64,000 nucleotides of DNA, from contig JAIVFH010000058.1 of NCBI GenBank assembly GCA_025765595.1, forward strand, positions 1 through 64,000, read 5' to 3'. Below the pieces are notes generated by a model, which saw only the letters and a list, made by a program, of their open reading frames with translations, was not told the DNA's origin and did not search any database. The stretch's first letter is position 1, and every line of letters starts with the position of its first letter. A program made the position numbers and the translations under genes. Shown here one piece after another: positions 18,626-55,500 of the stretch. Origin of the DNA: Obelidium mucronatum (taxonomy: Eukaryota > Chytridiomycota > Chytridiomycetes > Chytridiales > Chytriomycetaceae).

Positions 18626-18823
18626 TTCACAGTCACTTCGAAGGTGCGAAGGGGGCTTGTTATAAATATAAATGTCGAAATTACTTTTGGATACCAAAAT
18701 ACTTCCATAATTCCAAATAAACAATTTACTTAGAGGTACAAGACTAAAGACAAAATACGAAAGAAAAACTGAAGCTAAGGTAAAAAGAAAAACAATGCGT
18801 AAATAAACTGAGTTGACAGAATC

Positions 18824-23107: not shown

Positions 23108-23766
<659 letters not shown>

Positions 23767-23778
23767 TTTTGAATGTTA

Positions 23779-24334
23779 GAGGGGTGGGAAAATTCACAAC
23801 TTGAATAAAGCTCACTCAAGACCAAAGGCGTAGAAAGGCGTTTACCGATCCAGAACTCCCAGAGCCATCAAAATTGCCGCTAACGTCGTAAAGCCATCCA
23901 GTAAGTTTACGAGAATATTTTTGGGGCTCAAGGTCGAGTCGCGTTGATTTATTTTATTCCATCACTTGAACTGCAGTCTGAAAGTTTTGAAGATGCGGAT
24001 TCTGAAGACAGAACGGACTTATACCGGAAAGCCAGCCGCCTGCTTGGCTTTTCACTTTACTCATTTCGGACTCGCGACTTGCCAAGGCAACACACGTATT
24101 TTTTGAGGGTTTGACGGGAAGTTTGAGTACTCGGTGAAATGCACTGGACACCAGCTACTACAAGGCAAAAACTCTGGTTTAAATTAAGTGCGCTGCGGTT
24201 TGCTTGAGGCTACTACGCCACTTTACATTATTGACCAATGTTCATAACTTACCACACTGAACATTGAAAAAATTGGGATATCAAGGTGCTCAGCAAACAC
24301 AACATTGATATTATATCTTTAAAAATCTGTCAAT
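23779..24334. other. Intergenic region upstream of RPS30-A and the GH18 pair
   Basis: Unique loop sequence that must hold the promoters of RPS30-A (minus) and the first GH18 gene (plus). No coding region recognised. Confidence 0.5.
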
Positions 24335-28238: not shown

Positions 28239-28450
28239 TTCCTAACGAAATCAAATAAAACATTATGTCAGTAATATGTCGTCCAAAAGTAACCTCAACA
28301 ACTCAATGCGCCGATGATGCTTCGGACAACGAAGCAACTCTGCCCTGAATGTTTGTTTCGCGATTAAAAATATTGGTTCGAGGTTGAGTTCGTGGGTGTA
28401 ATAAAAGTATCTCCATTGACCATTTTTCACAGTCCTCTTAACATTCAAAA

Positions 28451-29096
<646 letters not shown>

Positions 29097-29372: not shown

Positions 29373-30625
29373 TCATGACTGCTGGTTGCCCAAGTTGAGC
29401 AGCAGGTTGTTGCCTGATCCTCCAGGCAAGTACGTCACGTTTCTCGCTCCGCTCAAAGTGTTTGCAATTTCCTTGCTCGCTTCAATACGACGCAGGTCGA
29501 CCAATCCCTGACCAGCCTTGCTGATGGCCTTGGAAATCAAGTCGGCTGCCGTGGCGTCTCCTTCCGCTTTGATGATGGCAGCCAACTTCTCCTGCTCCGC
29601 CTTCTCAACCACAAACTTGGCGCGTTCGGCTTCCTGCTGCGCGATTTGCTTTTGCTCGACCTGTGTGTGCAACAAACCGTAAATTCAAATGAACTCCACC
29701 CGAAACAAGTGATTCCCAACAAAAAAAAACGGCTACGCAACTGCATTCGTGAACTCTTTTCCGAAAGTCAGGTGGGTGATGGACACGTCTTCCAACACAA
29801 TAGAGAATTCGCTGGATCGCTTCACGAGATCGTCACGGATTCTTTGCGAGACAAGTTCGCGCTGCGTAATCAACTCGGACGCATCAAACTGAGCAACAAT
29901 CGATTTGAGCACTTCGTTTCCAATGGATGGAAGAACACGGTCGTCGTAGTCGAGACCGAGGGATTGGTAGATTGTGGACAACTGTGTGTACTCTGGGCGG
30001 TGCTGTATAATGAAGTAGGGGGTGGGGTTTAGCAGTCGCGAATGTAGGGCTTCGTTACTGTTGGCTCAAGACGCACACCCTTCCTTCTCTCAAGACGCAA
30101 GCCAGAGCCCCGCTCTTCCTTCATCCGCATGCCAAAAAGTCGAGGGGTTGATTGAAACGCACCAATACTCTCAAAGTCAGAGACACCATCTGCATATCCT
30201 TGGACCCCGTGGTTGTGGAAATATTGCGGGGCCGGGTGCGGACATCAAACACGACAGCCTTCTGCAACCAAGGAACAAGAAAGTGAGTTCCCTCAGAAAC
30301 CTGTGCGACAGAGACGGAGGAGAGGCGTGTGTTGGTTTTGTGTTAACTCAAACATGACACAATGTGAAGGGAGCAACAGATACTCAACAGTGTCTGGCAA
30401 AACTCCGCGGATACGATCAAAGAGAACAGCACGGTGGCCTCCCTTGACTGCAGAGGAAATGCAGAGGGAATGCATGGGTTGAAGCAGGCTGTTAGTTGGG
30501 ACCTAGAAAGGACAGACAAGCAATAGAGTGAATTACTGACCATCGTACATTGAGTATTGCAAGCCGCTTGCCACAATTCCAAGAGGAAGAGCCCAGCGTG
30601 CGATGGAGTCGACAATGTTGGCCAT
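29373..30625 (-). CDS. PHB1: Prohibitin-1, copy B
   Basis: Exons 30625-30541, 30447-30389, 30300-30163, 30002-29742 and 29660-29373 give the same 276-residue protein as copy A; the substitutions I spotted in exons are synonymous (for example in the HFLVPW block). The upstream sequence differs completely from that of copy A beyond about 6 bp from the ATG, so the two copies have different promoters. The domain description is as for copy A. Confidence 0.95.
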
Positions 30626-36746: not shown

Positions 36747-37291
36747 TCGCGGTCGTATCGTAATCGCAACATCTGCTTTGTATTCATCTTCATTCAATGT
36801 CTATACCTTTACCACGCCTATATCTAAATAAACATACCAAATCACACATTCAAATATTTAAACGAAAGTTTGCAGGTTTAGTCTTTGGTCCAACAACTCG
36901 ATTCGAATCCACTTTTTAAATTTCATCTCCAGTTGCGGCGGTATACAATAACCTCACTCAAAGTCCGTCATCCGTTCTGACCTGCCGAAAAAGTGGTGTA
37001 CTCCTCAAAACCGACCCCTTTATTGGTAGCCAGAAATTTTCTCACCCTTTCCACAATGCCATGCCACACTTTCCACCATGTTCTTTCCACCATGTTGAAG
37101 TGACCTATATCCGGGCATCACTTCCGACAGTATATTTTGGCTATGAATCCCCAAAGGCGGGTCTTCAGCTCGCATCGCTATCGTTGTGTTGATGGCAGAA
37201 CCCTTCTCCCCAACTACGGCTAAATTCAAATTGTTCAAATTTGCTCTAATTAACCAATTTATTACATTTGCTTGAATCCGGTTTCTGAAAA
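36747..37291 (-). pseudogene. Decayed C-terminal domain of the zinc-finger gene 1a
   Basis: Reading on the minus strand, ILSEVMPGYRSLQHGG (about 37130-37080) matches ILSEVLPGYRSLSHSG in paralogue 2a. Beyond that point frame changes and stops break the similarity, though the DNA still resembles the paralogue down to about 36880 (ends matching FKKWIRIELL). The upstream gene stops at 37292 after a 1-nt insertion relative to its sister, and the sister's splice donor GGTAAGC reads TGTAATA here. Confidence 0.7.
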
Positions 37292-39084
37292 TCAACATCC
37301 TTTCTTTTTTGGCATACGCTCGAACAGTTCCTCCTCTTCATCCTCAGAAAATTCAGCAAGTTTACGCTTCCTGCCTTTCGGTCTAGAATGGATGGTATCA
37401 TCACCTTCAGGTTCGGACTCGATACTACTTATATCTAAACTCGGTACTCGATTTTGTCGGAGTCTCTTTCCTTGTTCAACAAGTGTGCCAGCCATGGTAC
37501 AATTCTCAGCGTGCCTCCGCAGTTTTCTTTTACAGTTATACGATTTTCCGCAACAGGGACAGGAAATCTTCCCGGTCTCTTTGTTTCGGACAACTAGTAC
37601 AGACAGAGTTATTAGGGAGATTATCTTTTGAAATATAACTTGCCTTCAACCAATGAAAACCCGTCCATAAAAGATATGACGTATTTCTCCCGATGAAATT
37701 GTCCGTTATGATTCGATAGCTGCTTTTCACCCATTGCGATTCCAAAGAATTGACAACCCTCAACTTCGCAAGATCTTTTTTCTAGAGCGGATGACTGCTT
37801 TTGCTGCCGATGTAAATTTGTGTTTTTCGACGATAGTTTGTCCTTGCCAACAGCATTTTTCAATGAATTCGTGTATTTTCTTTTACACCGCGCCACATGA
37901 CTCCGATAAGCTACCGGCGTATTAAACGGTTTCTGGCGCGCACACTTTTCAAAAGGACATTTGAGGTTTAAATCAATGTGCGGAGGAATGGAAACTTGAA
38001 GTTTTTTATTCTGAAGCTGTAGCGGATCTTGAGTCGGTTTCTGTGGATCTTGCGTTTGTTCCTGAGGGGAATTGATGGATGGGGTAGTGTCGGAAGTAGT
38101 TTTTGGGACAGCAACGGAACTCAAAAGATGATGTGCAGAGGCTAATACAAAGGGTAAAAACAAAGGTGAATTCATATTGGAAATCCGCACCCCAAGAGTC
38201 AGTGCAGGTTACTTACAGGTAGCTTTTGTTTTGCCGTAGGCGCGATATACAGTCTGTATCTCGAGTCCCATTATGGTTTGGTTCGCTAAGATTTTGTTGC
38301 TAGCTGGCGTCATTGCTGAAATTTTGGCGAGAAAGTCATTTTCGTTTGTCTGACCGAGTCTTTCGCAAGTAGCAGTTTTTGACATCGTGTAATGTGATGG
38401 GGTATCTACATTTATAGTGGACTCCAAAGGAAGTGACGCTTGAATTCGATTCTCCGCTGCCGTTGTCTCGCTACAAGGAAACTTTGTTGCATCAACATCC
38501 ATGGCTTGTTGGTCAGAGGTTTCATTCAGTCTTTCAGCCGGGCAATTAATCAGAGTCTCGGAAATAATTGGAGGCTTGGGGCCAGGGTAACTCAGTGGAT
38601 CTTTGGCGTTTGTTTGAAGGGAATGGCAGTCAAAACATGAGCAACAAGAATTGTTGATTAATAACATACGCGAAGTTCCATTCGGCCCCATAGTGGGAAT
38701 CTGGGAGATGCTTTTCGAGCAAACACTTTGTGGTGTTCGTTGAACTCGTTCTGCGCCATCGATAACTTTCAGGCGAGCCGGCATCGTTAAGCGCACGCGG
38801 TACGGCTTCCTTGCGGCGTACGCCGCCTCGGCTGCCGCCAGGGCGTCTTTCCACGCGGGCGGCTCGACGGCGGCCGCCAGAAGCGGCCGCAGGCGGCGCA
38901 GCGCCGCAACGTGCGGCGAGTCGCCGTCGCCGTCGCCCGGGTCTCCCGATTCGCGCTGCTCGGCCGCGACCGTCGCAAACGCCGCGCGCCAGAAGCTTTC
39001 GACCGGCGAAATTCGTTTCGTCAGCGCCTTCAGCAGCCACGCGGGCGGTCCGGGCGGGGTGGTGGTCGTGGTGTTGTCTGCCAT
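37292..39084 (-). CDS. Zinc-finger protein 1a of a novel local family (truncated)
   Basis: Exons 39084-38670, 38600-38217, 38141-37644 and 37593-37292 give about 532 residues. N-terminal unrecognised domain (about 12-92, AWLLKALTKRISPVESFWRA ... WKDALAAAEAAYAARK); polar middle; then Cys/His motifs CPFEKCARQKPFNTPVAYRSH-x4-C, CEVEGCQFFG-x12-H-x4-H and CPCCGKSYNCKRKLRRH-x4-C. The last intron (37594-37643) has a GC-AG boundary where paralogue 2a has GT-AG. It lacks the PAH module and the C-terminal domain of its sister. Divergently transcribed from gene 1b across a 224-bp gap. Probably a nuclear regulator, but no function is known. Confidence 0.6.
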
Positions 39085-39308
39085 TGTTTCTCGTTTTTGC
39101 GTATTTCGTTTGTTTTTTACAGTGATGATCTCGATATCGAAACACACTCGATTAATAATTCGACGACGAATACACCGACACCGTCGTGCAATCAAACACC
39201 GTCGCCTTCTCTGAATTGATTAAATGAATAAATAAATACTGCAAAAGTGATTGACTGAAGGAGTTGACGCATTGTATTTCAACCTGTAAAAACCGAAAAA
39301 CCACTGAA
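39085..39308. promoter_or_regulatory. Shared bidirectional promoter, unit 1
   Basis: The 224 bp between the starts of genes 1a and 1b must drive both. It is nearly identical to 44070-44293 in unit 2, including ATCTCGATATCGAAACACAC and AATAATTCGACGACGAATA, differing by a few substitutions and one small rearrangement around the run of AAATGAATAAATA. Confidence 0.65.
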
Positions 39309-40132
39309 ATGTCCAGCATGTGGACCGTCGCTGAGCTCGACAAACTCGCAAAGCAACAAATGGCTTCAATCGATCGACTCGAAACGCAAGTGAAGGAACT
39401 TCGACACGAGAATACGGATCTCCGCGAGGAGAACCGGAGGCTTCAGCAACAAATCCGAGACCATCGTTGTCCGGTCGACAGAGCGCCAACTGACCCAGTC
39501 ACTGTTCCAAAAACCCCAACAAGAACTGATCCTGCGTCTGTCCGTGGGAGCAAGCAGAACTCAGCCGGGGAGCCATCAAAACTTGCAACTGAAGCAACCA
39601 ATAACACCACTTTCCAGAATGCTCCGATCGATCAGTCGACGCCAAATGAAAGCCCGAATGCGTACGAGCAAGTATACACTCGAACTCAAAAACGAAGAAA
39701 ACTGAACTGCTACGTAAGGGAAACGGACGTCATAGGTATGTAAAGGGGGTACACACTCCGCCACGAATCCCTTTGTTAAAACTAGCTTCTTTCAAAGACC
39801 AACCTAAGTTGCATCCTTGGATTCACAGGTTTCTTCGCGAACTTGAATCCATCGACTGGAGCGCACACTACGAAAAGTATGTCAGGAAATCTGATGAGTT
39901 GGCGGAAAAATATGGAGAATTTCTGCTTTGTATTGACAACATTCAAAAAATTGAGAAGGACTCGTCCACACATAAGTATTATGCCGTGATCTGTGTCCTT
40001 ATAGACAACAACGTTCTTGGTAAAGAAGATGAAAGTGGCTTCATATCTGTGCCGGATTATCCCAAGAATTGGAAGCATATTCAAAAAGAGTGCAATCGCT
40101 GGTGGAAGCAACTTTCAAGACGCGAGGAATGA
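39309..40132 (+). CDS. Leucine-zipper-like protein 1b of the novel family
   Basis: Two exons (39309-39735 and 39786-40132), 257 residues. The first 85 residues are almost identical to gene 2b and form a leucine-zipper-like coiled coil (LETQVKELRHENTDLREENR) followed by a Thr/Pro linker. The second exon replaces the zinc-finger exons of 2b with a segment beginning HPWIHRFLRELESIDWSAHY, which weakly resembles the shared N-terminal domain (Pro-Trp, Leu, Trp pattern) of genes 1a, 2a and 3. No zinc motif. Head to head with 1a. Confidence 0.6.
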
Positions 40133-40474
40133 AAGATCGAGTATTTGAAATAAACAAATGACTCGTTTGGGTTATTCTGATTGAGGACTGAGAAATTTTA
40201 CCGTCCAAAAATTGCTTCGAAAAATTGTATGCAAAGCCCCTTTCACAATCACAATGGACGCTTGGATCTCTCGATTCTCTAAGCAATTAGCGATTTCATG
40301 CACTGGCACTATAAGAATCAACCTCTTTTCGACCAGCTGGAATATAAGTGCAAGGCTCTCGTATATTTTTCGTGCCGCAATCCACTTTGTATCATCACGA
40401 TTCATATTCATTCAATGTCTATATGCTAACAACGCTACGGCTAAATTTACATTTTTTCAAAATATAATACAAGT

Positions 40475-43400
40475 TTATTCCTCATCCAACAACTCGATTC
40501 GAATCCACTGTTTAAATTTCATCACCAATTGCGCCGGCATATAATAATCCCACTCAAATTCAGTCATCCGTTCTGACCCTTGCTTCGCCGTAAAAGCTAT
40601 GTTTTCTTCAAAACCGGCCCCTAGATTGGTGGCAAGAAAATTCCCAACTCTTTCAATGATATCACGCCTTCCACTATGTGAAAGTGACCTATATCCGGGT
40701 AACACTTCCGATAATATATCTTGGCTGAGAATTCTCAAAGGCTGATCTTGAGCTTGCTGCTCTTTCGTTTTTGTGTTGGCGGCATCTGCCGAAGCCTTGT
40801 CACCAACCCTATCTAAATTCAAGCTGTTTGAAATGGCACACATTAAAAAAATTGCTTACCTTTGCTTAATTCAGGTATCTGAGACTCCAATCCTTTCTTT
40901 ATTGCCCTGCGCTCGAGCGGCTCCTCTTCTTCATCCTCAGAAGATTCAACAAGCATACGCTTCCTGCCTTTATGTCTGGGATTGATGATAGTCTCATTAT
41001 CTGCAGGACTGGACTCGCTACTGCTCATATCCGAATTTGGTAGAGGATTTAGACGGGGTCTCTTAGCATTTCCAGCAAAGACCCCAGCCATTTTACACCA
41101 ATCAGCGTGATCCCGCAGTTTGTAAGAAGCTTTATATGATTTCTTGCAATAGGGACAGGAAACATCCCCGGTCTCTTTGTTTCGGACAACTTGTGCAGAC
41201 AGAGATATTAGGGATATCACCTTTTGAATGATAACTCACCTTCAACAACTGAAACACCGCCCAAGAACGAAATGACGTATTTCTCTTGATGAAATTGCTC
41301 GTTATGATACAATAGCTTCTTTTCACCCATTGCGGTTCCAAAGAATTGACAGCCAACAACTTCACAAGATCTTTTTTCCACAGCAGCTGACGGCATTTGC
41401 TGCTGATGTAGGATGGGGTTTTTCGACAAAAGTTCGTTCTTGTCAACAGCATCTTTCAATGAATTCTCGTATTTTTCTTTGCATCGTCGCACATGAAGCC
41501 GATATGCTCCCAGTGTTTTGAACGGTTTCTGGCGCTCACACTTTTCATAGGGACATTTGAGATTCGAATCAAATAATTTTGGCTCGTCTGAAGCGGGGTT
41601 TTTTGGGCCATCGCCGAATTTTCTGGTATTCGAATCCTTTTTAACCAGATATTCGTCATCGTGAACCTTCTTCATATGGCTTTCAAACTTGTCCCAAGTA
41701 TATCCAACTTGATGATGGAACTCGATAGTATTTGGCTCTGGGCACTTGTCAATTGGACACTCAAGTCCATATCCGGATTCGTGGAGTGGTACTACAAGGC
41801 CATGGAAGTTGAGAGGAGAATGGAACTTCCGTCGGTGGGCTGTCCAACTTTCATTTGTTGAATATATTGTGTTGCTCGTTGCACAGATTGGATGGGCTGA
41901 ACACTTGGTATCAAGAACATTAGAAAACTTGATAGTTGCTGGTGGAGCGGAGTCAGTGGCGCGTATCTTGCTTCGGTCAATGTTTGAAAGGTAACCTTCC
42001 TGGCTTTGCCCCTCCTTGCTTTGAGCGTGGAGAGGCATTGTCGAATCCAAAGTTGGAGAAGTTGCGCTAGTGTCTATTTCATCCGCAAAATTCTCGGTCG
42101 AACTCCTGAGTACCATTTAGAGACATGAAACTACACACCAGTGAAACAACATAATCAAACAAAATATCCTACCTAGGATTCACTAGAATGTCATCCGACT
42201 TTGTTTCACTTGAGGTCAACTCTGGTCGTCTTACGCATTTATCCTGATTTTTAAGCGACCTGAGAAATAAACGTTTGATTTCAGGTTGAAGACTAACAAA
42301 AGTTGATAACGAAACAACTTACGTCCACTCTTGGATTTGAGATTTCAAAACCTGCATCTCTTGCATGAATACGTCGATTCGGCCAGTAATTCTTTTAAAT
42401 TCACGCAAAGGGACTGTAACCAAGCGATCTTGGCCATCACTCTCATCAAAATCCATACAAAGGTGCTCAAGAAAAACTGGCTCTGAGTTTCGATGTTGTA
42501 CAACAGGTGTCATTTGTACATTATGAGGCGGGGCGTTATTTTGAGGTGGCTTTGAAGAAGCGTTTGCCGCCGTGGAACACATGGCGACGTACGGAGGAAT
42601 GGAAATTTGAGTTTTTTGATTGAGAAGTTGTGGCGCTTCTTCTTGTGTTTGCGTGGTTCGTTCTGGGGTGGGGAGAAAGTCATCTTCCTTTGTCTGGCTT
42701 ATTCTGCCTCCAGTAAAAGTTCCTGACGGCTTGTGATGTGATGAAGTGTCGACATTGGACTCCAAAGGATGTTGTGGAGGTGGTGGCACTGAGACATTAG
42801 AAAAAGTAGGAGCAGGAGCTAGCGGAATAGAAGCATGTTTACTGCCAGGACTAACCGAAGGCATGAAAGGAAGAGCATTTAATGAAGAAGAAGAAGCCGG
42901 GGTAAGCGCCACAGGCTTGATAGGGCCACCAAAGTTTCCGGGACCATCATTCGGATAAATAACGCGAAATGGTTCGAGGGGGTTGGAAGTTGCTTCAATG
43001 CGGTAACCAGGGGGCAGAAACGTGCAGAAGCCAGTGACGAGGGATGGGTGGTCACGAAACAAATTCGAGACGAGATCAATTACGCCTGGTATGTCGACTC
43101 TGGAACAGTATTTTCAGAGAATAAATAGGAAGGAAAAAAGAAACGCACGTTTGCGACTTGAAGTCCCTCATGATATCCTCGAATCTGTTGAACACATTTG
43201 GTTGGTTTGCCAACTGGGACTTCGCCTGATCCAAGTAGGTCTCTGCATCTTTGACGCTGAGCGATCGTGACCCTTTCTGCTGTTGTTGCTGTTGATGTTG
43301 TTGTGGATTTTCCGTTGTCGTTGGCTCAAAGTCTTTGCTGCTGCGAGCAGACGCTGGTGTATCAACATCTTCGGCTTCCTGGTTAGAGGTTTCCTTTAGT

Positions 43401-44069
43401 CTTTCAGCAGGATAGTTGGCGGGAGGCGTGGTAACAGTTGAAGGCTTGATTAAGCTCGGTGTATCGTTGGCTTTGGCGTTCGATGCTATGTTTGAGGGAT
43501 AGAGTATAAGCAACCTTGCCAAGAATTGATGACAACATACGTGATGATGTGCCATGGCCGAGAGTATGGTTGAGACGCGTCTCTGACGTGCATGCAGCAT
43601 TAGATTCCAACAAAAGGACGAGTTGGTCAGCAACGTCCGACTCTTCAGCAGATCTCGCTTGGGTCTCCGTAGGGACTGCGGAAATGCTGTTTAAGCCAGG
43701 CCAAGGCAAGTCCGCATTTGGCGCAGACGGATCCGCCGACGCCTGGCGCCGCTTTTGCCGCACAGCCGAGGCGCCCGGCCGCAGCAGCCGCTTCCTTGCG
43801 GCGTACGCCGCCTCGGCTGCCGCCAGGGCGTCTTTCCACGCGGGCGGCTCGACGGCGGCCGCCAGAAGCGGCCGCAGGCGGCGCAGCGCCGCAACGTGAG
43901 GCGAGTCGCCGTCGCCGTCGCCCGGGTCTCCCGATTCGCGCTGCTCGGCCGCGACCGTCGCAAACGCCGCGCGCCAGAAGCTTTCGACCGGCGAAATTCG
44001 TTTCGTCAGCGCCTTCAGCAGCCACGCGGGCGGTCCGGGCGGGGTGGTGGTCGTGGTGTTGTCTGCCAT
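40475..44069 (-). CDS. Zinc-finger protein 2a with Sin3-type PAH module, novel family
   Basis: Seven exons (44069-43541, 43485-43149, 43099-42323, 42259-42173, 42105-41240, 41189-40860, 40812-40475), every junction in phase, about 1087 residues. Order: N-terminal unrecognised domain (12-92, nearly identical to 1a); a paired amphipathic helix module (about 260-325, VKDAETYLDQAKSQLANQPN ... LFRDHPSLVTGFCTFLPPGY) of the type Sin3 corepressors use to dock transcription factors; Ser/Pro/Gln-rich linker; zinc motifs (CPIDKC-x17-H-x4-H, CPYEKCERQKPF-x7-H-x3-C, CEVVGC-x14-H-x4-H, CPYCKKSY-x8-H-x4-C); acidic/basic stretch; C-terminal unrecognised domain (about 985-1080, ILSEVLPGYRSL ... YYMPAQLVMKFKQWIRIEL). 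It is likely a chromatin-associated regulator by domain content; this is inference. Confidence 0.7.
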
Positions 44070-44293
44070 TGTTTCTCGTTTTTGCGTATTTCGTTTGTTT
44101 TTTACAGTGATGATCTCGATATCGAAACACACTCGATTAATAATTCGACGACGAATATACGGACACCGTCGTGCAATTAAACACGGTTTCCTTCTCTGAA
44201 TTGATTGATTAAATGAATAAATACTGAAAAAGTGATTGACTGAATGAGTTGACGCATTGTATTTCAACCTGTAAAAACCGAAAAACCACTGAA
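44070..44293. promoter_or_regulatory. Shared bidirectional promoter, unit 2
   Basis: Counterpart of 39085-39308, between divergent genes 2a and 2b. Confidence 0.65.
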
Positions 44294-46167
44294 ATGTCCA
44301 GCATGTGGACCGTCGCTGAGCTCGACAAACTCGCAAAGCAACAAATGGCTTCAATCGATCGACTCGAAACGCAAGTGAAAGAACTTCGACACGAGAATAC
44401 GGATCTCCGCGAGGAGAACGAGAGGCTTCAGCAACAAATCCGAGACCATCGTTGTCCGGTCGACAAAGCGCCAACTGACCCGGTCACTGTTCCAAAAACC
44501 CCAACAAGAACTGATGCTGCGTCTGTCCGTGGGAGCAAGCAGAACTCAGCCGGGGAGCCAAGTTCAAGTACAGCAACCAACACTGCAAAAACAAACTCTC
44601 TCGACCTGCTGGAATGCAAGTACAAGGCTCTCGGATGTACTCGAGTTGGGTTTCCTTCCATAAGGGCATATACGTCTCATGGTTATCGGTGCAAAGAGAA
44701 GTTCGAAAAGCAGGCGGACAATCCGTTGAAGCCCACTGAAGACAAAAGCCAAACTGAAGGGGATTCGGCCAATGATGAAGAACCTGATGATGGTAAGTCT
44801 CGTATGTTGGGCTTCACTAAACTGTGAGTCTAGTAGATAAACCAAACGCTCTCCACCTGCTGGAATGCGAGTACAAGACTTTCGGATGTACTCGTGTTGG
44901 TTTTCCTTCCTTAGGAGCATATAAGTCTCACATCTACCGGTGCAAAGAGAAGTTCGAAAAACAGCCAGACAATCCTTTGGAGTCCGCCGAAAGCCAAACT
45001 GATGGGGATTCGGCGAATGATGAAGAACCTGATGATGGTGAGTCTCGTATGTTGGGCTTCACTAAATTTTGAGTCTAGTAGATAAACCAAACGCTCTCCA
45101 CCTGCTGGAATGCAAATATAAGGCTCTCGGATGCACTCGTGTGGGTTTTCCTTCCTTAGGAGCATATAAGTCTCACATCTACCGGTGCAAAGAGAAGTTC
45201 GAAAAACAGCCAGACAATCCTTTGGAGTCCGCTGAAGACGAAAGCCAAAATGATGACGATTCGGCCAATGATGAAGAATCCGATGACGAAGAGTCTCGTA
45301 TGTTGTGTTTTGTTACCAGTTGTATACACTAAACTATGTGCAGGCAGTGAAGGTTATCAAAAAAGAAACGCAAAGACTTCGCGTACTTTTGGGTGTTTGG
45401 AGAATTGTACACGTCGAAGCCAAGCCGACAGAACAAAGTGCTATCAATACCATAGACCGGAATACACCCTTGCTGGTTTGGGGGTTGTTAAACGACGAAG
45501 CGATCATCTTTTGCCGTGTTCTTGTGGGGAGCTGTTTAAGGCATACTTTCAGCTATCACGACATTTCGAAGCAAACCACCTGAAGTCAGTGATTTGTTTC
45601 CGTTTTGGTATGAGACTTAAATTGTTCTTCTAGGGATTCTCAGCTAGTCGGCGATAGCCAAGAGTCAGACGACTTGGAAAACATGATGCCTGCCAAGAAG
45701 AGATTGAGGCACGCTTCTGTTGAAGCTGAAGACGATGTACCTATTGAAAGCATTGCAGCCTTTGAAAAGCTTGACTCGACAGGTATGATGCAAATGTAAT
45801 TCCAAAGTGTTTCAAATGCCTGGAATATCTAGAGAATTCACTGAAATCTTCGCCGTCACAAGATTTCGTAATTGACCTTACAGAAGATGAAAATCGAACG
45901 AATCCTAAATTGCAATGTAGCCATGAACTTATGCTTGAAATCATGCCATCTTTTGACACTATACAACCGGATGATTACGCAGCTATAATGGCCGCAGTTC
46001 AAGAGTTCTTACTGGATCAAAAGCTTGATAAATGTGAATTGAACCACTATGGCGACCACCCACCAGAGTCTTTGGTCGATTATATGGTTCCTTTGGCTTT
46101 TGCCGATGAGTTCAGGGAATGGATTTTCGACGAGCTTAAATTCAACGGGTTTTTGGAAGTGGAATAA
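44294..46167 (+). CDS. Leucine-zipper and triplicated zinc-module protein 2b, novel family
   Basis: Six exons (44294-44792, 44834-45037, 45079-45297, 45344-45584, 45634-45782, 45833-46167), all in phase, 548 residues. N-terminal coiled coil as in 1b. Exons 1 (end), 2 and 3 each encode a near-identical module with a C-x6-C-x12-H-x4-C zinc-like motif (GCTRVGFPSLGAYKSHIYRC) and an acidic tail (DSANDEEPDD). Exon 4 adds a CSCGELFKAYFQLSRHFEANH finger. Exon 6 encodes the family C-terminal domain (LMLEIMPSFDTI ... DYMVPLAFADEFREWIFDEL). Divergent partner of 2a. Function unknown; a DNA- or chromatin-binding role is likely from the fingers. Confidence 0.7.
44590..45297 (+). repeat. Exon-intron tandem triplication in gene 2b
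   Basis: Three copies of a zinc-module exon of about 205-220 nt, separated by introns of 41 nt that are almost identical to each other (GTRAGTCTCGTATGTTGGGC ... GAGTCTAG). The duplicated unit is therefore exon plus intron. Copies 2 and 3 are more alike than either is to copy 1. Confidence 0.85.
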
Positions 46168-46391
46168 AGTCGTGTGTTCTCGAGTACTGATGATTTGGAA
46201 CACAATGTGTTGTTTATTAATAACGCGCATATTGATGAAGTAAGGTGAATTATGACGAAGTAAGCATATTCATCATGGCGCTTCCAGAATTCATGGAAGT
46301 CCACGCTCCCCTTGAATAGGCCCATCTTGTGCGTAAAGTCTCCATGCTTACTTTTACCCAAGCCTTTCGGGATTTTCCTCACTTCAATAAC

Positions 46392-49300
46392 TCACCTCTT
46401 CACCATACATTGTAGCAACATATACTTCGTATCCATGTGTTTCGTCCTGTGCCTGTCCGCCCCTTCCTGAGTGTTTCTCACGGCTCCGGCGTTGTCACAG
46501 TGCAATACAGTTGGCTTCGGCTGTGGAAATCCCAGCCATTCCATCACGTTTCTTCCCCATTCTGCAATCTTTCCGCCGCTTGCTAGCGCCAATGTCTCCG
46601 ATGCGACTGTGGAGTCCGTTACAATATCTTGACTTTTCGACACTGGAGCTATTGCTGCGCCAGCCAACATCATCACAATTCTGGAAGTTGACTTCCTTGT
46701 GACCTTATTTCCAGCCAGGTTTGCGTCACTGAATACTTCCAGTATCATGTCAGTGTTTGCTTTGAAGTACAGCTTCGTTGTGTTGGATCCATTTAAGTAT
46801 TGCAGTAGATGTTGAGCTGCGGCCCAGTGGGTCCTATTGGGGTTGTTGGCGTAGGAGCACATTCTACCTAGAGTTTCAATAATGTCCGCTCTGGTGAGGC
46901 ATGCAAATCGCAGTAGTCCCAGTAGTCTCATCCATCTCCCCTCGAAGAACGCAATGTCCTCACTTGGCGTTGGTTGGTCTGTATCAAAAGTGTCTTCCAA
47001 TTTTGAGTTCCATGGAGTCGATCTTGAAATTGGCTTGTTTCCCGAAAAATATTTTTCTTCCAGAAATTTGTCAATGATGCTTTGAATGTACACTGGTCCA
47101 TGGTAGAGTACCCCTTGTAGTATTTGCAGTTGATTCCAGCCCACATTCCGATTCCTTCTTGCCATTTCACTTCGACTTTTGAAGCTAACCATTTCCAAAA
47201 TTCTAGGGTGTCTTCCTTGAATTGGCAGCCAAGCTTTCCGCCGTCAGAATGCCAAAGAGTATACATGATGCCTCCTGTCTTCTTTGATCTGGCTTTGAAA
47301 AGACATGGTGAGCCGGGGCATTCTTCAAATTCATACTTGGCAAGGAATTCATTTCTAAGACACTCCCAGAGGTAAGCACCTTGTTTTAGGCCGTAAATTC
47401 CCTTTAAGGCTAACAATACTTTTCCTTTGTCATCTTCTCCTAGTTGCATTCCTTGCGGGATTCTGACGTGGATTACCTTTTCCGTGAATTGGTCCAGTCC
47501 AGTTCCTCGTTGATTGCTGCCACCCACTCTTTGCCCTTCAACGCTTCTTTGATGTTCTTTGGTCCATCGATGGTTCCAAATGCAAGGCCTCAATGAACAC
47601 TAGGAATGTTGGTTTGTGGATCATGTTTCCGGTGTTGTCATTCTCGCAAGTCCGGCAAAGAGGGCAAGCCGATTTGGTGGTTTCAATTCTCTGGGAGATT
47701 GCCTTGGTGGAGTTTGAGGAGTTGGTGGTGGAGATATTGTGCTGCAGGAGTCGAGGGGTGGCAGGGATGTGGTGCTTGGTGTGTCGCTGCAGATAGAGGA
47801 TGTTTCTGACATGTATTCGTCTTGGGGTTTGTAGTTGGATCTTGAGTCTTCTAGGTGAGTTTCCATGTCCATGGCTTGGATGTCCATTCCATTGTCCTGG
47901 ATAATGCTTTCCAGCTCCTCTACACTTCTCTCAACTTCCATCCCATCAAATTCTTCTTCATTCTTTGCCTTTTTTTGTACAGTTTCCTTTGCGTTGACAA
48001 AGTCTTTGTCTTCATCCCATCCTTTTTTATCGTGGTGATTGTTGTATTGAGTTAACTGAATCTTCGACATCAAATTGGTTCTCGACAAAGAAGACGTCTC
48101 TGCTAATAACTGTGCTGTTGTCATCAAAAAGGATTCTGTATCCCTGTTGCGTGTTTGTCTGCCCATCAGGATAGGCATAGGAGATGAAAGGTCCTCTCCT
48201 TGCTCTGTCTTGGGTCTTTCCGCTTCCTGGAATGAAAGGGTATGCCAAACATCCGGGGACTCGGAGATCTGATACTGTTGGTTTGTGCTTGAAGGTCATT
48301 TCGTATGGGGTGAGTGCCATTGAAGAATGTTTTGATCTGTTCCAAACATAACATTTGCACTCCAGGAGATCCGGCCATAAGTCCCTTGGCATTTTGGTTT
48401 CAGATAGAGTCGCCCTGACTCTGTCCATTGCAGTTCAGAACCATCCATCAATTTCCCCATGGTTATTGTGCACCGGCTGATGTTGTTATGAGCTGAATCC
48501 CGGCCTCATGGCAGACGTCCTTCAATGTGGATCCCGTGAAGTTACTGCCCTGGTCAGAGTATATTTCTTTCAGTTTTTCACCGGTAGTTCTTTCTAACAT
48601 GTCTTTCACCCATAGGATAATACTGCTGGCTTCCTCCATCTTCATGGAGAAAAGTTTGAACATCAGTCTCAGTTGAGTCCAGTGAAAGTTCACTCCTAGA
48701 TAGCCTATGACCCAGCCTCTCCCTAGTCTTGCTGTACCATCTTCCCCTTGCAATGAGAGTTGCTGGTGCTTCGGGTACTAGCTGGATTTGGTCAACCTCA
48801 AACTCTCCAAAGTTCATTGACCATTGGATTCCGGCACTTTGGATATTATTGCCTGATGCCGTTTCATATGCTATTGTTGGTCCAGCTATCTGGTTTGACA
48901 GTTGGTTTACGTCACCTGTCATAGATTTGCTGCATGCTGAGTCGAGGTATACTGGGGACTTGTTTTCGGAAATTGGAGCAGAGATGTAAGCGGAATCGTG
49001 GCTTTCGCCACCTTTATTTTAGCCCCGTTCAACACCTTCCTGTCCTTCTCCTTCACTAACTTTTCTACATCCAAACTTGTGAATGGCTTCTCTAATATGA
49101 TTATGGCTTATGTTCCACCTGATTTTTTGGACACTGCTACAAAAGAATTGTCTGCCAGGAGTTTTTATACTCCATGACATGTAAAAACTCCTTACATTTT
49201 ATGAGATCGCAAAATTTGTGGTGGTAAGTTGTCTAAATCCACAATCGGCTTTGCTCATGCTTTCGGGGAAGCGTCGGCCATTGGCACTGGAATGACTATT

Positions 49301-49560
49301 AAGGGTGAGTCCGTGGGAGGCACTGGAATGACTATTAAGGGTGAGTCCGTGGGACAGTTGCGCTTCCTCCCTGTTCAGCTGTTTAACTTCACTTTCAAGG
49401 CAACTAATAGTCATTTGGAGGCCTTTGACGCTCTCTAAGTGCTCCTTCATCAGATTCTCTATGACACTTGGTTTCATTTTTTTTAATGGTTTTGACAACA
49501 ATGGGAGTTTCTCAAAGGATAATTCTTATGAAAACTCTGACGGAGTGTCAAGGTTTTGCA
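46392..49560 (-). mobile_element. Ty1/copia retrotransposon remnant
   Basis: Degenerate pol in copia order on the minus strand. Protease-like YLDSACSKSMTGDV (about 48955-48910); integrase core IYSDQGSNFTGSTLKDVCHE (about 48570-48510); integrase C-terminal region (YVWNRSKHSSMALTPYEMTF, VPGCLAYPFIPGS); reverse transcriptase (VRIPQGMQLGEDDKGKVLLA, ALKGIYGLKQGAYLWECLRN) with a damaged catalytic box; RNase H (LEVFSDANLAGNKVTRKSTS, LHCDNAGAVRNTQEGADRHR). Several frameshifts and stops. A coiled-coil scrap at 49199-49501 may be gag and contains a 36-bp tandem copy. No LTRs identified. Confidence 0.85.
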
Positions 49561-49588
49561 AGGCGCACTGCCCAACCAAAAAATTTAA

Positions 49589-51909
49589 GGCCCCGTTTGG
49601 CAGGGAAAAAGAAAATTTGAGTTTATTTCCAAATCCCAAATATTGGGCCAGATTGAATATTTTGAAATATTGTGCTCCCATCGCAATTTACAGATGTTCA
49701 GCCGCATTTCCAAAAGAAACGAAGCAAAAGTAAAATTTTCGTTCACTAATTCATATATTCTATATCATCTATAAAAATTCCAAAAACATCATCTGTTTCT
49801 CACAACGCTGGTAGTCCTACCATATCGCCTCTACAATAAAGTCCCAATAACCTTGACAACTCTATCCACACCCTCACACCACCCACCGCTTCTTCTTGAC
49901 CACCTTCTTCACCTTCGAAAGTCTCACCTTCGAAAGTCTCAGGCCGGTAATCAAAGCCCATTCCGTCGCTTCGCACGATTTTAAACAAGACACAAGACGC
50001 AGAGGGAAAAAAATCCCAGAGTTTTTTGTGCGCATGCTCCCATTGCTTCAAACACCTGGAACGTCATGGTTTGGGTTGTTGCACAATGTGATACGCATGA
50101 TGCCAGGAAACACGGCTTATTTGAGCCTTCAATTTGTAGAACTACTGCAACTTTAAGTTACATCAAGGAGGGCAATTAAAAAAAACGGGACTTACTCTTC
50201 AATGGCCATTCTCAAGTTCTCCAACAACCATGATGGCGAGACGTTCTCCAATAACCAGGATGGTGAGACGACAGCATCTTGTTCAGCAAGGTGAGTCAAT
50301 TCATCGAAAAAAATGAAGTTGAGAAAAAATGCATGACGCAATTGCAACTGGAACAAGTTGACCAATCGGCATCTTCTGATCACAGGACTTGTCACGTGCC
50401 TTTGGTTTCCTTCTTTTTGTTTCCCTGTCTGTTCTGTTCATCAGTTTTCAATTTCTTTCCTGGCACTTGGCGCTTCTTTGGTTTGTGTTCGAATTCTTCA
50501 TTCTTGACGTATGCGTTCATGTATCTGCTAGAAGTTGTTGTCCATCCAAAAGGAAAGTGAAAAGAAACAACTGAAAAGGAAACTGGAAGAACTACAAGAA
50601 TATGAAGACAGAGCATTCAAGGAGCTGAGAAAAGGGAAAACGACATTAGAAGAAATCAGCCATGACATAGCAAGGGAAAGACAAAGACTGGAAATACCTG
50701 ACGAAGATGTGGACATGGGACTGGTGTCCCTACAAATACCCAAAGGATGGCGACAAGGGTCGACCCATCCAGAGGGGACCCTACCAACACAAGGACCAAG
50801 CAAGCAGCAAGGGGACTGGAACCCCACAAGCAAGAGACATATGGTGGAAGGGAGGCCAGATGGGGGCTCTCTTTTTTCCCCACAGGGGTTCTTGATAATG
50901 AGGCCCCCGATAAGTGTGGAAGCTCAAGAGGAGCTGAGGGATGGGAGTGGAGGAAGTGGGGTTGTTGTAGATTAGGGGTGCACAATATAGGTGGAAACTC
51001 AAGACAAGTTGGAGGATGGGAGCGGGGAAGTGGTAGTGGTAGTAGACTGGGGATCTACAAGGGGGGTTAGGTGGAAATCATCGCAACCCAGAGTATGAGG
51101 CCAGGCCTTACTAATCAATCCGAGTAATTGGGGGGAAAATAGTAGTTCGACAAGTGTTTATTACAAAATACAGTTCATACCAAAAAAAAAAAAAAAAAAA
51201 AAAGTCACGTGCCTTTGGTTGTAAGCTGTCCTTTTTGACTCTTCAACAAAAAAAAATGTTGTGAAGAATTGACCAACCCGAATACCTACTGGAGTGGCTG
51301 CGCAGCCACATTCTTTAATACAGGGCAACACTTGCGAATCATTCATGATGTGTGGAACTTTGTGCTGGATTGTTGGAACACCAAACTCACCATCAGCCAA
51401 CTCAAGTCCCTTCGGGTTGACTGAACTTCATTTTATTTGCATAATACAAACCCCTTCTGCTTATTGTATAACACACGTTCCTTTTATAATTTCAGCCACT
51501 TAAAGAGGAGCATTGTGCAACTACTCGAAATCACAATTGTTTTCTATCATCCTCTACCCTTTTACTCCATTCTACCCTTTTACTCCATTACTGTTGTTTT
51601 TTGTTATTGTAGTGTTTTTGAATAGATTGCATTTATTGTTATTATTCACGTTTTTCTATCATTTTTGAAAGTCAAAATCTGAAATGCTGCTTCAAGCTGC
51701 ATTTGATATTCACGCAATATTTGACCAAAATATATGATTTTTGCATTTGGTTTTTTTTGGATATTTGCAAATACTAAATTTGACCAAAATCTGAAATATT
51801 TTTTTGAAATCGTCATTTTTGGCAAATTGGTATTTACAAATATTTTTTTTCAAATATTTATTTCTTATTTTCATTTTTCCCTAGGGAAATTTTCCTGCCA
51901 AACGGGGCC
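49589..51909. mobile_element. 2.3-kb TIR element with TAA target duplication (PIF/Harbinger-like)
   Basis: GGCCCCGTTTGGCAGG at 49589-49604 is exactly inverted at 51894-51909. The flanks are TAA on both sides (49586-49588 and 51910-51912). A 3-bp TWA target duplication and GG-C-C-GTTTGG ends fit PIF/Harbinger elements. The interior has no transposase I can read. It contains a charged coiled-coil open frame (around 50545-50720), a 23-nt A tract at 51182 and AT-rich subterminal sequence. Confidence 0.75.
50545..50975 (+). other. Charged coiled-coil open frame inside the TIR element
   Basis: Starts with a Lys/Glu-rich helix (QLKRKLEELQEYEDRAFKEL, ISHDIARERQRLEIPDEDVD), then Gly/Pro-rich sequence. 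There is no clear ATG at the start of the frame and no recognised domain. It may be a scrap of element-encoded ORF1. Confidence 0.3.
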
Positions 51910-51912
51910 TAA

Positions 51913-52042
51913 GTTAAATGACAAATACACCCGTTCTGAAACTTTTCGTCACTTAGAAATTTTTTGTCTCCTTTCTTCACTTTGATTAGAAGGAATTCCA
52001 TAATAATTCAAAGTCGTGCTATATTACCAATGCTACCATGGC
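51913..52042. other. Short gene-free segment
   Basis: AT-rich; nothing recognised. Confidence 0.4.
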
Positions 52043-52491
52043 TTATATATTTATTGATATGATTTCAAAGGAGACTAGAGGAGAGTGTCGTTGTTTGTGC
52101 TCCTGGAACGCTCAACCATCCAAAACATTAGTTGGCATGCCGACAAGAGACCGAGAAGTACTATCTGCAATCTTGACGGAGTACACTGCCACTTGAAGAC
52201 CAGACTAGTTACGGTTTTCAAGACAACATGCCTCCAGCAACACAGCCAGGGACTCGACACTGAATGTTCCTGCTTTTCTCTCACCTTGGATGCGCGATGT
52301 ATAATTGGCAGATAAACAACGAAAGTGCTTTCGTTACAATCTCCACAACATTGCAGCGCTTCACCGTCTGTGGAGGCGACAGCTCCCGCTTTCATCTTCT
52401 CGAGCGTCATATCCCGCTCTGTCAAGACTGCTGTCAAGGCAGCAGTCTTGCGTCTGAGTTCGTCGACGTAGTCCTCCAGAAGTTCGTTTGT
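52043..52491 (-). CDS. Partial coiled-coil coding segment, unidentified
   Basis: An exon from 52491 to about 52293 reads smoothly (ELLEDYVDELRRKTAALTAV, ERDMTLEKMKAGAVASTDGE). It can be spliced in phase at GTGAGA to a short last exon ending at 52043. The sequence before 52491 ends in an acceptor-like AATGTAG, so upstream exons are expected, but I did not find a convincing one. A perfect 11-bp hairpin (CAAGACTGCTG) lies in the coding region. Not recognised; it may be a relic. Confidence 0.3.
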
Positions 52492-52619
52492 CTACATTCG
52501 CAAAGGGTCTCGAAAAATCCTGGAAAAATCCAATATTTCAAACATATTTGTTATTTGTATCGTATTGTTGTTTTGTACCACAACGGCGATTATTGCCCGG
52601 CACCTTCAGCGGGATAAAA

Positions 52620-54515
52620 ATGACACACCATCGGGCGGACGTTAGGAATTTGGTGAAGGTGGAGATAACGACGAAAGCGATGCGTCAGACACTTCCAGTC
52701 GCAACCACACCAACAATGCAACCGTGGTTCCTATCTTCGCTTGCATCACTGAGTCCCGACATGGAGAGCTGGAAGGCGGAGTTCATCCGATTTTCAAACG
52801 GAGCCAAAGTCTCAAATCTGGAAGGAGACAGATTCACCGCTGTTATTCAAAAACTGGGTCAATTCGCTGAATTAACGAGTGCTCCGAATAACTGGCCAAG
52901 TCTTGTTATGGATGCTGCGCGGACATTCGCTGTTGGAGCCGCAATGCAGAAGAAACAGCGACCTCTACCCCATCCGCCGCAAACGAGTACCCCTTCTTCT
53001 GTGACCACCATTGTAGACGAGCCTGCAAAATGTCTGAATACGGCCGGTTAGTTCAATTTGTAGATTGTGTGTTTGTGCTAACTTTTTTCTTGAGATTCCA
53101 CTACTTCGCTCCCTCAAGTCATTCGTCGGAAAATAGACAACCCAAAGGTCACTCCAAAGTTCACTACAAAAGATACCCAAAGAATTCTGGAGCTGTATAG
53201 TCGTTATGAGGACGAAGGGAAGATTGGCAGAGTATCTACCGTTGGCCGCGTTGCCAAAGCTGTGAAAGATACTTTTCCAGGTTATCACGATGTTTTGATT
53301 GAAACCATTAGGGCGCGAATAAGGTTTGTTTCGCCTTCGTCTCACAATTTTTTCCTAACACTAAATTTATAGAAACATAATCGAGAGCTCCAATTCTATG
53401 GATGGCAGTAAAGCCCCCTCCATGGAACCATCAGACGTTTCCTATGCGTCTCGAGGCACTGAAAAGGAAAGAAGGCTGATGGAAACACCATCCGCACAAC
53501 CTCCTTGTACTAAACGTATACGGTTGGATGATGGTACAACTGACCCAAACGATGGTTTATCGATACTGTATTCTTCGAAGCAATTGTCCAGTACCGGCGC
53601 TCAGTTTGCTGTTGACACTAAGAACGATCAGCTTCGTGATTCTGCTCATAACTCCTCACAAATACAAAGTCCCATCCTGAACGATAACGACAATTTTGCA
53701 TTGAAAAATGCCCATCCCCAAGTAGCCAAAAGCAAACCCATCAAATCATTCGCTCCTGAGGAGAGATACCTGGACCTTGTTCGTGAAAGGGATTTTTATC
53801 AGTCCGAATTGAACCGACTCAAAGTGGAACTTCAGGCCTTGAAAGCCGAAAACCAGGACTTGATTGTCAAAAACCAAAATTTGGTGGCTGAAAAGTTGTA
53901 TCCTGTTACATCCAGGACAAAGATGGCCCCTTCGATAACGAAACTCTCCCCTAATCTTGGCGGCGGGAATCTTTCTCGCCGGGAGTGTCCTTACAAATAT
54001 CGCGGATGCATACGAACCAAGGATAGTTTCGTATCTCGAGAAGCTTTCTACTGCCATGTTCGGCGATGTGGGTCAAGCGCAGCTGTGCAAAAGTTCTTAC
54101 CGACGCCAGAGGAGGATATCATACCGGACCTTCTCTCGCCTGAGTATTCGAAAGTGAAGGTTGAAATAACATCAAATCCTGAAGAATGGCCGAGGGATAC
54201 AACGTAAGTATCTTCGTATTGCTTTTCTTGGTGGGCTGATGGTCGCATTGCAGGTTATTGACTGCTATCATGCCTGGTTACACAAGTCTTATCGAACGTG
54301 AGAAGCTCGCTGTAAATGCCGGTGTTAAGGAGTTTTTGATGGAGAGTATGGCCAATATTGGGCCATGCATCGTGCCCACAAGAGGAATTACGCAATTCCA
54401 TGCAGACTATTTGATTCCTTTGGAGCTTGTGGAATCATTTCAGATATGGGCATATAGAGAATTGAAAGAGATATTTGTTCACAATCACGTTCGAAACCCT
54501 TTGAAGTCCAAGTAA
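52620..54515 (+). CDS. Zinc-finger protein 3 of the novel family
   Basis: Four exons (52620-53046, 53095-53323, 53373-54203, 54254-54515), all in phase, 582 residues. The N-terminal domain (about 33-113, QPWFLSSLASLSPDMESWKA ... NWPSLVMDAARTFAVGA) is a diverged match to that of 1a and 2a. Then a basic helical segment (FTTKDTQRILELYSRYEDEG), a polar region, a coiled coil (LKVELQALKAENQDLIVKNQ), a CPYKYRGC-x16-H-x3-C zinc-like motif and the family C-terminal domain (LLTAIMPGYTSL ... DYLIPLELVESFQIWAYREL). Introns 1 and 2 use GTTAGT and GTTTGT donors. It lies 6.5 kb from the 36-46 kb cluster, beyond the mobile DNA. Confidence 0.65.
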
Positions 54516-55500
54516 AGAGATGTAATTTTAGCAATTAGCTTTAAATTCTCGGTATTGGTTCCCGGTCAATCGTCATGCATTGAACGTCGATCCTTTCAGT
54601 TATTGCAGTCGCCTTGAATATCCGTCCAATCCTTGGATAGCAAGTATGAAGCCACTATCATCTTCATCGCCAAGAACGTTGCGCTAGGATACTAATCACG
54701 GCGTAATACTTGCGTTTGAACAACTCTTTCAATCTATTTGACTTCCAACGAACGTCTTCTTCTTACAACGACGGTTCTTCTAGTCATGTCTTCATTGGCG
54801 CCTTCTCATAATAAAGATTCCAATCTCACAGGTTGGATAGGTAATGCTCGAACGTGGACGTACATTCTGGTTGCCACAGGTTTCATTTTTGATTTGGAGA
54901 AAAAAGCGAGCGAATCCCTTAGGGGGTTTCAAAATTGCGATTTTTCAACAACAAAAATTTTGAAGAAATTGGTCGAAAAAATTTCTCCGATTTTGTCAAA
55001 AAGGCTGTTTCAAGTAGTCTTTTAAGAAAAAAATGATGAGTCACCTCTTTTATTGAATTTGTGTTTTAAGTACGTACACAGAAGAACTTAGCAACTGCTG
55101 CGGTTATCACCAGCTATTGCCGCTTATTTTGCAAATGTCAAACGGTTGCATCCAGGTCATTTTGACTTCTGAAGCTGGTCCTGGGCCTGTCAGAAGGCAA
55201 AACCCCCAAGAATCAAGGCCATGTTTTCGCAGACATTGAAGAAGGGAGCGAAAATGACGGCAGTGCTTTCCTTCAGAATCAAAAAGACTCTCAATTGGAA
55301 GTACAGCCATCAATTAAGTATTAGATTTGGCAATTTTGCAATTGGTTCAAACCTTTCCGAAAGGCATCCCACTCAACGGCAGTAGTTGGCAATTTAATAA
55401 AGAGTTTCAAAAGCTTGAATTGACTACTTGGATCACTCACAGTCAAAAAAAGACAGCACCAAGGGAATTTCCAGACAAAACAAGAGAAGACTCCAAAAGG
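54516..55500. other. Gene-free segment with a lone TIR-like end
   Basis: TTAGGGGGTTTCAAAATTG at about 54917 matches the TIR of the element at 9872-10376, but I found no inverted partner nearby. It may be a broken copy. Nothing else is supported. Confidence 0.45.

Follow-up and report, generated by a model that had tools for sequence, protein, structure and literature searches.

We analyzed the first 64,000 bases (1-64000; the window) of a 224,741-bp contig, C58, from Obelidium mucronatum, a chytrid of the Chytriomycetaceae whose assembly comprises 48.3 Mb in 694 contigs. The window carries five genes, the divergent pairs 1a/1b and 2a/2b and gene 3, and holds the edge of a cluster on C58 of a gene family whose members share a C-terminal domain (C-domain), usually preceded by zinc fingers and in some cases by an N-terminal domain (N-domain). 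Spliced models were made for all five genes, with introns of 41-75 nucleotides (nt) that have GT-AG boundaries except for a single GC donor in gene 1a; protein lengths are given in amino acids (aa).

37292..39084, minus strand: gene 1a; exons 39084-38670, 38600-38217, 38141-37644 and 37593-37292; 532 aa, with an N-domain and fingers but lacking an intact C-domain
39309..40132, plus strand: gene 1b; exons 39309-39735 and 39786-40132; 257 aa, coiled coil and a 114-aa C-terminal part
40475..44069, minus strand: gene 2a; 7 exons, 1087 aa, N-domain, SIN3-derived PAH1, zinc motifs and C-domain, both ends being predicted
44294..46167, plus strand: gene 2b; exons 44294-44792, 44834-45037, 45079-45297, 45344-45584, 45634-45782 and 45833-46167; 548 aa
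52620..54515, plus strand: gene 3; exons 52620-53046, 53095-53323, 53373-54203 and 54254-54515; 582 aa

The models of gene 3 and gene 2b are 100% identical over their full lengths to the NCBI hypothetical protein BDR26DRAFT_866969 and to NCBI BDR26DRAFT_866959, respectively, and their exon joins are therefore independently annotated. The coils at the start of 1b and 2b resemble the zipper part of bZIP proteins at scores under the Pfam cut-off (E 6e-5 and 3e-5), and the 114-aa C-terminal part of 1b was found at a single place in a genome search.

Profiles of both end domains were built from gene 3 and two paralogues outside the window (P0002 and P0003, located at 79-82 kb on C58 and each annotated as a single protein holding both domains), and were searched against the 1,563 open reading frames (ORFs) of the window. 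The C-domain profile retrieved 2b (E 2.2e-7) and 2a (E 2.6e-5), followed by a remnant behind 1a (E 0.55) and the first non-family ORF (E 1), while the N-domain profile retrieved 2a (E 0.0041) and 1a (E 0.0054), with the next match at E 3.3. These searches bear out a first-pass annotation of this DNA, which had proposed a C-terminal domain common to 2a, 2b and 3 and an N-terminal domain common to 1a, 2a and 3. The domains are positioned as follows, by profile search unless stated otherwise.

38806..39084, minus strand: N-domain of 1a
43791..44069, minus strand: N-domain of 2a, identical in protein sequence to that of 1a
52710..52982, plus strand: N-domain of gene 3
40478..40729, minus strand: C-domain of 2a
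45919..46164, plus strand: C-domain of 2b
54243..54500, plus strand: C-domain of gene 3
36885..37157, minus strand: C-domain remnant behind 1a, 52% identical to the 2a C-domain, with three internal stops (two TGA, one TAA)

When the N-domain of gene 3 was used alone as a query it matched neither 2a nor 1a at E 1, and the N-domain of P0003 alone matched them at E 0.019 and 0.016, respectively; the 1a and 2a copies are not independent of one another, because they lie inside a 771-column block that is 97.5% identical. The motif pattern by which the C-domain had been described fits gene 3 literally, but neither 2a (VLPGYRSL, VGNFL, DYYMP) nor 2b (IMPSFDTI), and is thus a loose description. No Pfam match lies over either end domain among the 20 window ORFs scanned, 22 C-domains compared with Pfam gave no match below E 0.06, and the C-domain has no Pfam, NCBIfam or fold match at the usual cut-offs. 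The N-domain is predicted to form four helices (predicted local distance difference test score (pLDDT) 72, predicted template modeling score (pTM) 0.59); a fold search of the predicted end-domain structures, as the first-pass annotation had suggested, returned no match for the N-domain model or for that of the C-domain.

The size of the family was determined by genome searches with single C-domains and by an iterated hidden Markov model (HMM) run over all of C58 and eight loci fetched from other contigs. This census yielded 23 C-domain copies that are uninterrupted over the HMM match (17 on C58, 3 on C52 and 1 each on C31, C65 and C234), and the HMM also found two pieces of the 1a remnant. Four further places (C52:97840, C633, C119 and C89; E 1.4e-9 to 0.0015) raise the number to 27, or to 26, because the copies on C65 and C234 are identical over 86 aa and may represent one gene assembled twice; matches on C4 (27 residues, E 0.0011) and on C220 (E 0.054) were excluded. 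What had been taken for a local family of three genes is thus a family with 27 C-domain places in the genome and a cluster that reaches to about 188 kb on the contig, where its features span 36.9 to 188.6 kb with empty stretches at roughly 106-119, 128-172 and 175-187 kb. The N-domain is a real end domain of the family but a minor accessory, with five copies, all on C58 and each preceding a C-domain or what is left of one (weak matches on C8, E 0.27, and C99, E 0.55, were excluded). The composition first assigned to the family was also incomplete, as a recurrent finger type and a C-domain-related domain, termed MID, belong to the wider family.

The zinc motifs of the window, located by pattern, are the following.

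41089..41903, minus strand: four zinc motifs of 2a, starting at 41903, 41555, 41366 and 41157
44615..45188, plus strand: three tandem C2HC finger copies of 2b, starting at 44615, 44866 and 45111
53986..54069, plus strand: C2HC finger of gene 3

A fifth motif of 2a with wider spacing (C-x4-C...H-x4-H), starting near 41759, was recognized by eye. By our reading, a plausible Cys/His finger (C2H2 or C2HC) lies on the same strand no more than 3.5 kb upstream of 13 of the 17 C-domain copies on C58, the exceptions being the copies at 80900, 119735, 120481 and 121975; the pattern search also returns chance motifs. The recurrent finger, R...G...CPCG...HAKKC-x-G, is significant in 34 of 35 rows (30 on C58 and 4 on C52), including 1a and 2a. 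For MID there are 17 rows, of which three are partial; hhalign shows it to be related to the C-domain (probability 91%, E 8.8e-7; none of 100 column shuffles scored as high). The Cys/His spacing of the family fingers fits C2H2 or C2HC variants, by pattern only, and the ratio of nonsynonymous to synonymous divergence (dN/dS) is 0.36 in the 1a/2a finger region (113 codons) and 0.19-0.26 among the finger repeats of 2b. Two results count against the favored view of the family as DNA-binding regulators, set out below: no family finger in the window reaches the Pfam cut-off, the best scoring 18 bits versus 27 (PF00096, PF13894), and the third finger and acidic stretch of 1a/2a are nearly neutral (dN 0.31, dS 0.33, ratio 0.93).

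Three further finger loci were observed. At C58 77445-79119 (plus strand; L036), four successive frames repeat a two-finger unit (53-81% mutual identity where matched) and lead into a C-domain, a duplication that we liken to that of 2b. BED-like C-x2-C...H-x4-C fingers, named by eye, occur at C58 126111-128573 (minus strand; L041) among the long frames 125926-126909 and 127545-129821. Within the window, 17408-18823 (minus strand) encodes a C2H2 zinc finger protein with PF00096 above the cut-off, which groups in an all-against-all comparison with the ORFs at 16297, 19714 and 20832.

The PAH module that had been noted in one of the genes is present in 2a, and it was captured from the SIN3 gene of this genome, which goes beyond the earlier description.

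42772..43276, minus strand: SIN3 PAH1 segment captured in 2a, with a homologous intron at 43100-43148; PF02671

The second half of the segment alone matches PF02671 with 31.7 bits (cut-off 21.3), and the region matches SIN3 PAH1 in chain 8kc7_B with a phmmer E of 4.9e-39. The genome's own SIN3, on C69, is split at the same place, and the two DNAs can be aligned from a CAA/CAG tract to within the linker that follows PAH1; their introns (73 and 49 nt) resemble each other in the first part and in the last bases. Over 143 codons the copies share 87.9% nucleotide identity (dS 0.168, dN 0.121, ratio 0.72). The 2a module is a DNA-level copy of the genome's own PAH1, intron included. Only one PAH was found in the scanned exons of 2a, and the other Pfam families that SIN3 matches were not found there, in contrast to a SIN3 corepressor, which has several PAH repeats and a deacetylase-interaction region. 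The block is missing from 1a, in which segments flanking it match 2a on the 5' side (E 6e-33, with the cassette described below) and on the 3' side (34 residues, E 1e-4), the latter flank being placed differently in a whole-length 1a/2a alignment. The captured module is apparently under relaxed constraint: dN/dS rises to 0.89 over its first 75 codons, and two leucines conserved in the genome's own SIN3 and in SIN3 of the PDB, which we take to matter for the hydrophobic cleft of the domain (helices 1 and 2), read Glu in 2a.

Frame, splice sites and paralogue architecture suggest that the N-domain, PAH and C-domain are joined in one 2a protein. NCBI annotates instead a 613-aa protein (BDR26DRAFT_564347; P0005) that begins downstream of the PAH module and ends within the last intron of our model, with internal exons that agree with ours. 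Were the NCBI model right, the N-domain, PAH and C-domain stretches would be decaying or separate, as the dN/dS of 0.72-0.89 and the two Leu to Glu changes in the PAH would also lead one to expect. We regard this as unlikely, as the second PAH exon and the first exon of the NCBI model form one open frame, the frames and splice sites of 2a are intact throughout, and N- and C-domains are joined in single annotated proteins in gene 3, P0002 and P0003.

The block that contains the N-domains of 1a and 2a is a cassette present in both divergent pairs.

38805..39575, no strand assigned: cassette made up of the shared divergent promoter and the beginnings of the first exons of 1a and 1b; it matches 43790-44560 with 97.5% identity over 771 columns

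The best-matching remainder of 1a and 2a is 75.5% identical over 1,108 columns. On the a side, the first 93 codons have a third-position GC content of 0.84-0.85 versus 0.41-0.44 in the rest, for which GC-biased conversion is a possible cause, and the homogenized block as a whole probably arose by gene conversion. The dS values, which may be compared only with the caution that rates differ between genes, are 0.445 for the 1a/2a finger region, 0.168 for the SIN3 capture, and 0.013 (a side) and 0.046 (b side) for the cassette; they suggest that 1a and 2a split first, that the SIN3 segment was then captured, and that homogenization of the cassette came last.

To gain insight into the nature of the C-domain, a 22-sequence profile was searched against 177,635 distinct PDB sequences. 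It returned 23 sequences at E up to 5, 13 of which are of NF-YB type, including all of ranks 1-7 (E 0.0017-0.023; rank 2, Oocyst rupture protein 1, is of this type by its own match), and the first match of another type has an E of 0.12. The alignment is ungapped over a stretch that we take to be helix 1, loop 1 and helix 2 of NF-YB. An hhalign comparison of the profile with five hand-entered NF-YB/NC2 beta sequences scored 25.1, as compared to a maximum of 18.6 in 200 shuffles. In the reverse search an NF-YB HMM, with matches listed up to E 50, reported 59 of the 4,881 ORFs, namely 9 of the 25 C-domain ORFs and 50 of the 4,856 others; among ORFs of 80-300 aa the proportions are 9 of 22 and 8 of 930. 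The nine share one register, two of them holding ranks 2 and 3 (E 0.032 and 0.066) and the other seven having E values of 6-44, and a control with reversed sequences reported 51 ORFs, none of them among the 25 C-domain ORFs. We consider the chances slightly better than even that the C-domain is a distant relative of the NF-YB-type histone fold, and call it a probable relative rather than a member, because no PF00808 match is listed for it. An apparently ordinary NF-YB is present on C17. Both end domains had been called undescribed, which agrees with the lack of a Pfam match to either, but the C-domain may not be wholly so, since its first half resembles the NF-YB histone fold.

Several observations weigh against this kinship. 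The first-ranked ORF of the NF-YB HMM (E 0.022) is unrelated, just two of the nine C-domain ORFs fall below E 0.1, and a register shared among related domains is not independent evidence. The similarity is confined to helices 1-2, with loop 2 and helix 3 unmatched; the NF-YB chains from human and fungi reach no better than E 0.26-0.41 against the profile; a five-sequence profile gave one NF-YB, at E 0.32 and behind an unrelated protein; PF00808 is not among the Pfam families listed for the 22 C-domains at E up to 1; and MID shows no NF-YB similarity. In an AlphaFold model of the gene 3 C-domain (pLDDT 74, pTM 0.56), which was built from a five-sequence alignment and predates discovery of the larger family, helices span residues 2-11, 14-32 and 56-80, making helix 2 shorter and helix 3 longer than is usual for the histone fold, and a Foldseek search with this model gave no match (8 chains realigned; no histone among the 5 shown). 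The poorly fitting helix lengths, the behavior of MID and the absence of matches at the usual Pfam, NCBIfam and fold cut-offs are what would be expected if the C-domain, together with MID, were a new small helical domain that serves in oligomerization or partner binding, as KRAB, SCAN and ZAD do in animals. This interpretation is credible though less probable than the histone-fold kinship, as the PDB profile search places NF-YB at the top and the similarity passed both the shuffle and the reversal controls.

The family is most likely lineage-specific, having so far been seen only in O. mucronatum. A protein search with the whole of gene 3 gave at least three matches among 7,990 candidates scored, none of those listed coming from outside this species, and residues 90-547 of 2b gave one match, in O. 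mucronatum only (5,212 candidates). The whole of 2a gave at least 17 matches (7,987 candidates), of which 16 are PF02671-bearing proteins outside O. mucronatum; these 16 are the only proteins from beyond the species among the matches listed, the queries not including typical C-domains such as that at contig position 119735, and the 2a list is not complete, because the genome's own SIN3 is absent from it. In the portions available of papers on Obelidium, PAH with zinc fingers, chytrid lineage-specific zinc fingers and KRAB/ZAD (including PMC4350883 and PMC5415576), and of papers on divergent promoters with gene conversion, histone folds with zinc fingers in Chytridiomycota, and NF-YB with C2H2, the family is not named. 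Within that coverage, and with no Pfam match to either domain, the statement that no named family has this architecture stands.

Taken together, these data lead us to favor, with a probability of about 0.55, the view that the genes form a large clustered family whose members probably act as DNA-binding regulators in the nucleus, carry a degenerate NF-YB-type relative as their C-domain and multiply by duplication, shuffling and conversion. The zinc fingers would read DNA, and the coiled coils and the C-terminal domain, the latter probably retaining the helix 1/loop 1/helix 2 part of a degenerate histone fold, would form dimers or larger complexes. The family would expand by tandem duplication, with finger exons duplicated or swapped and gene conversion homogenizing the divergent promoter and first exons; copies would also be lost, as in 1a, whose C-domain is now a remnant, and the PAH1 exons of SIN3 were taken up in one case, 2a. 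The two end domains, the number and clustering of their copies, the capture of SIN3 sequence together with its intron and the homogenized cassette are observed directly, and the histone-fold kinship is supported short of proof. Nuclear DNA binding, dimerization, a regulatory role and gene conversion as the origin of the homogenized block are predictions.

Two further features lie in or beside gene 3.

53124..53327, plus strand: helix-turn-helix-like segment of gene 3, a likeness seen by eye
54602..54730, minus strand: remnant of the 3' end of a 1b-like gene, 73% identical over 142 columns and convergent with gene 3

The former segment has no relative in the PDB and was found at one place only in a genome search. 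Elsewhere in the window, copia-like polyprotein fragments were recognized by eye between 2b and gene 3 (46392-49018, minus strand). Two frames that lie on opposite strands and are each 204 residues long (22175-22786, minus; 29418-30029, plus) have the same weak matches and, with the pair 23436-23801 and 28266-28768, resemble an inverted duplication. A reverse transcriptase domain (PF00078, E 2e-9) lies at 4763-6154 (minus strand) and an SNF2-related domain (PF00176, E 6e-27) at 63029-63928 (plus strand).

The BED-like finger spacings near contig positions 126111-128573, the copia-like fragments between 2b and gene 3 and the possible helix-turn-helix of gene 3 raise the question of whether the genes descend from mobile-element proteins that were partly domesticated. 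We judge this to be very improbable: Pfam scans of the 20 window ORFs, the 22 C-domains and 12 MID segments matched no transposase or integrase family, in an analysis that included no terminal-repeat search and no scan of whole genes outside the window.

The modules described here invite comparison with known systems. The PAH of 2a copies the PAH1 segment and intron of the genome's own SIN3, but holds only PAH1 and part of the following linker, and two conserved leucines read Glu. Gene 2a is a clear example of domain gain in which exons and the intron between them were captured at the DNA level, and the donor SIN3 still resides in the genome. In plant WRKY19 (PAH-WRKY-WRKY-NB-ARC), a PAH is likewise joined to a DNA-binding protein; WRKY19 is unrelated to 2a, and the likeness lies in the PAH fusion (PMC4350883). 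The C-domain follows NF-YB/HAP3, the histone-fold subunit of the CCAAT-binding factor, in its sequence pattern from helix 1 through loop 1 to helix 2, but the similarity is weak, loop 2 and helix 3 are unmatched, and zinc fingers precede the domain.

The 771-column cassette suggests that the divergent gene pairs have recently undergone conversion with one another. The best-known clustered, fast-evolving zinc finger families that share an effector module are those of animals. No KRAB, ZAD or SCAN domain appears in the Pfam match lists of the 20 window ORFs (two of the lists comprising the best 25 of 28 and 25 of 32 matches) or in those of the 22 C-domains. The broader idea that the family is a fungal counterpart of the KRAB/ZAD clusters, evolved independently in an early-diverging fungus, with a module reshaped from an NF-YB histone fold, finger-exon shuffling, promoter conversion, SIN3 capture and perhaps mobile-element conflict, is tentative and rather doubtful, and the significance of the family is limited in that it is seen in one species and its role is predicted. 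A fungal example whose module is possibly a histone fold would nonetheless make it possible to test the convergent evolution of such families. Like the KRAB-, ZAD- and SCAN-type C2H2 families of animals, the Obelidium genes are clustered, fast-changing zinc finger genes with a shared non-finger module, tandem duplication and module loss; they differ in that they show no evidence of transposon silencing, their fingers are mostly C2HC-like variants, the host is a fungus, and the module is a different one that lies at the C-terminus.

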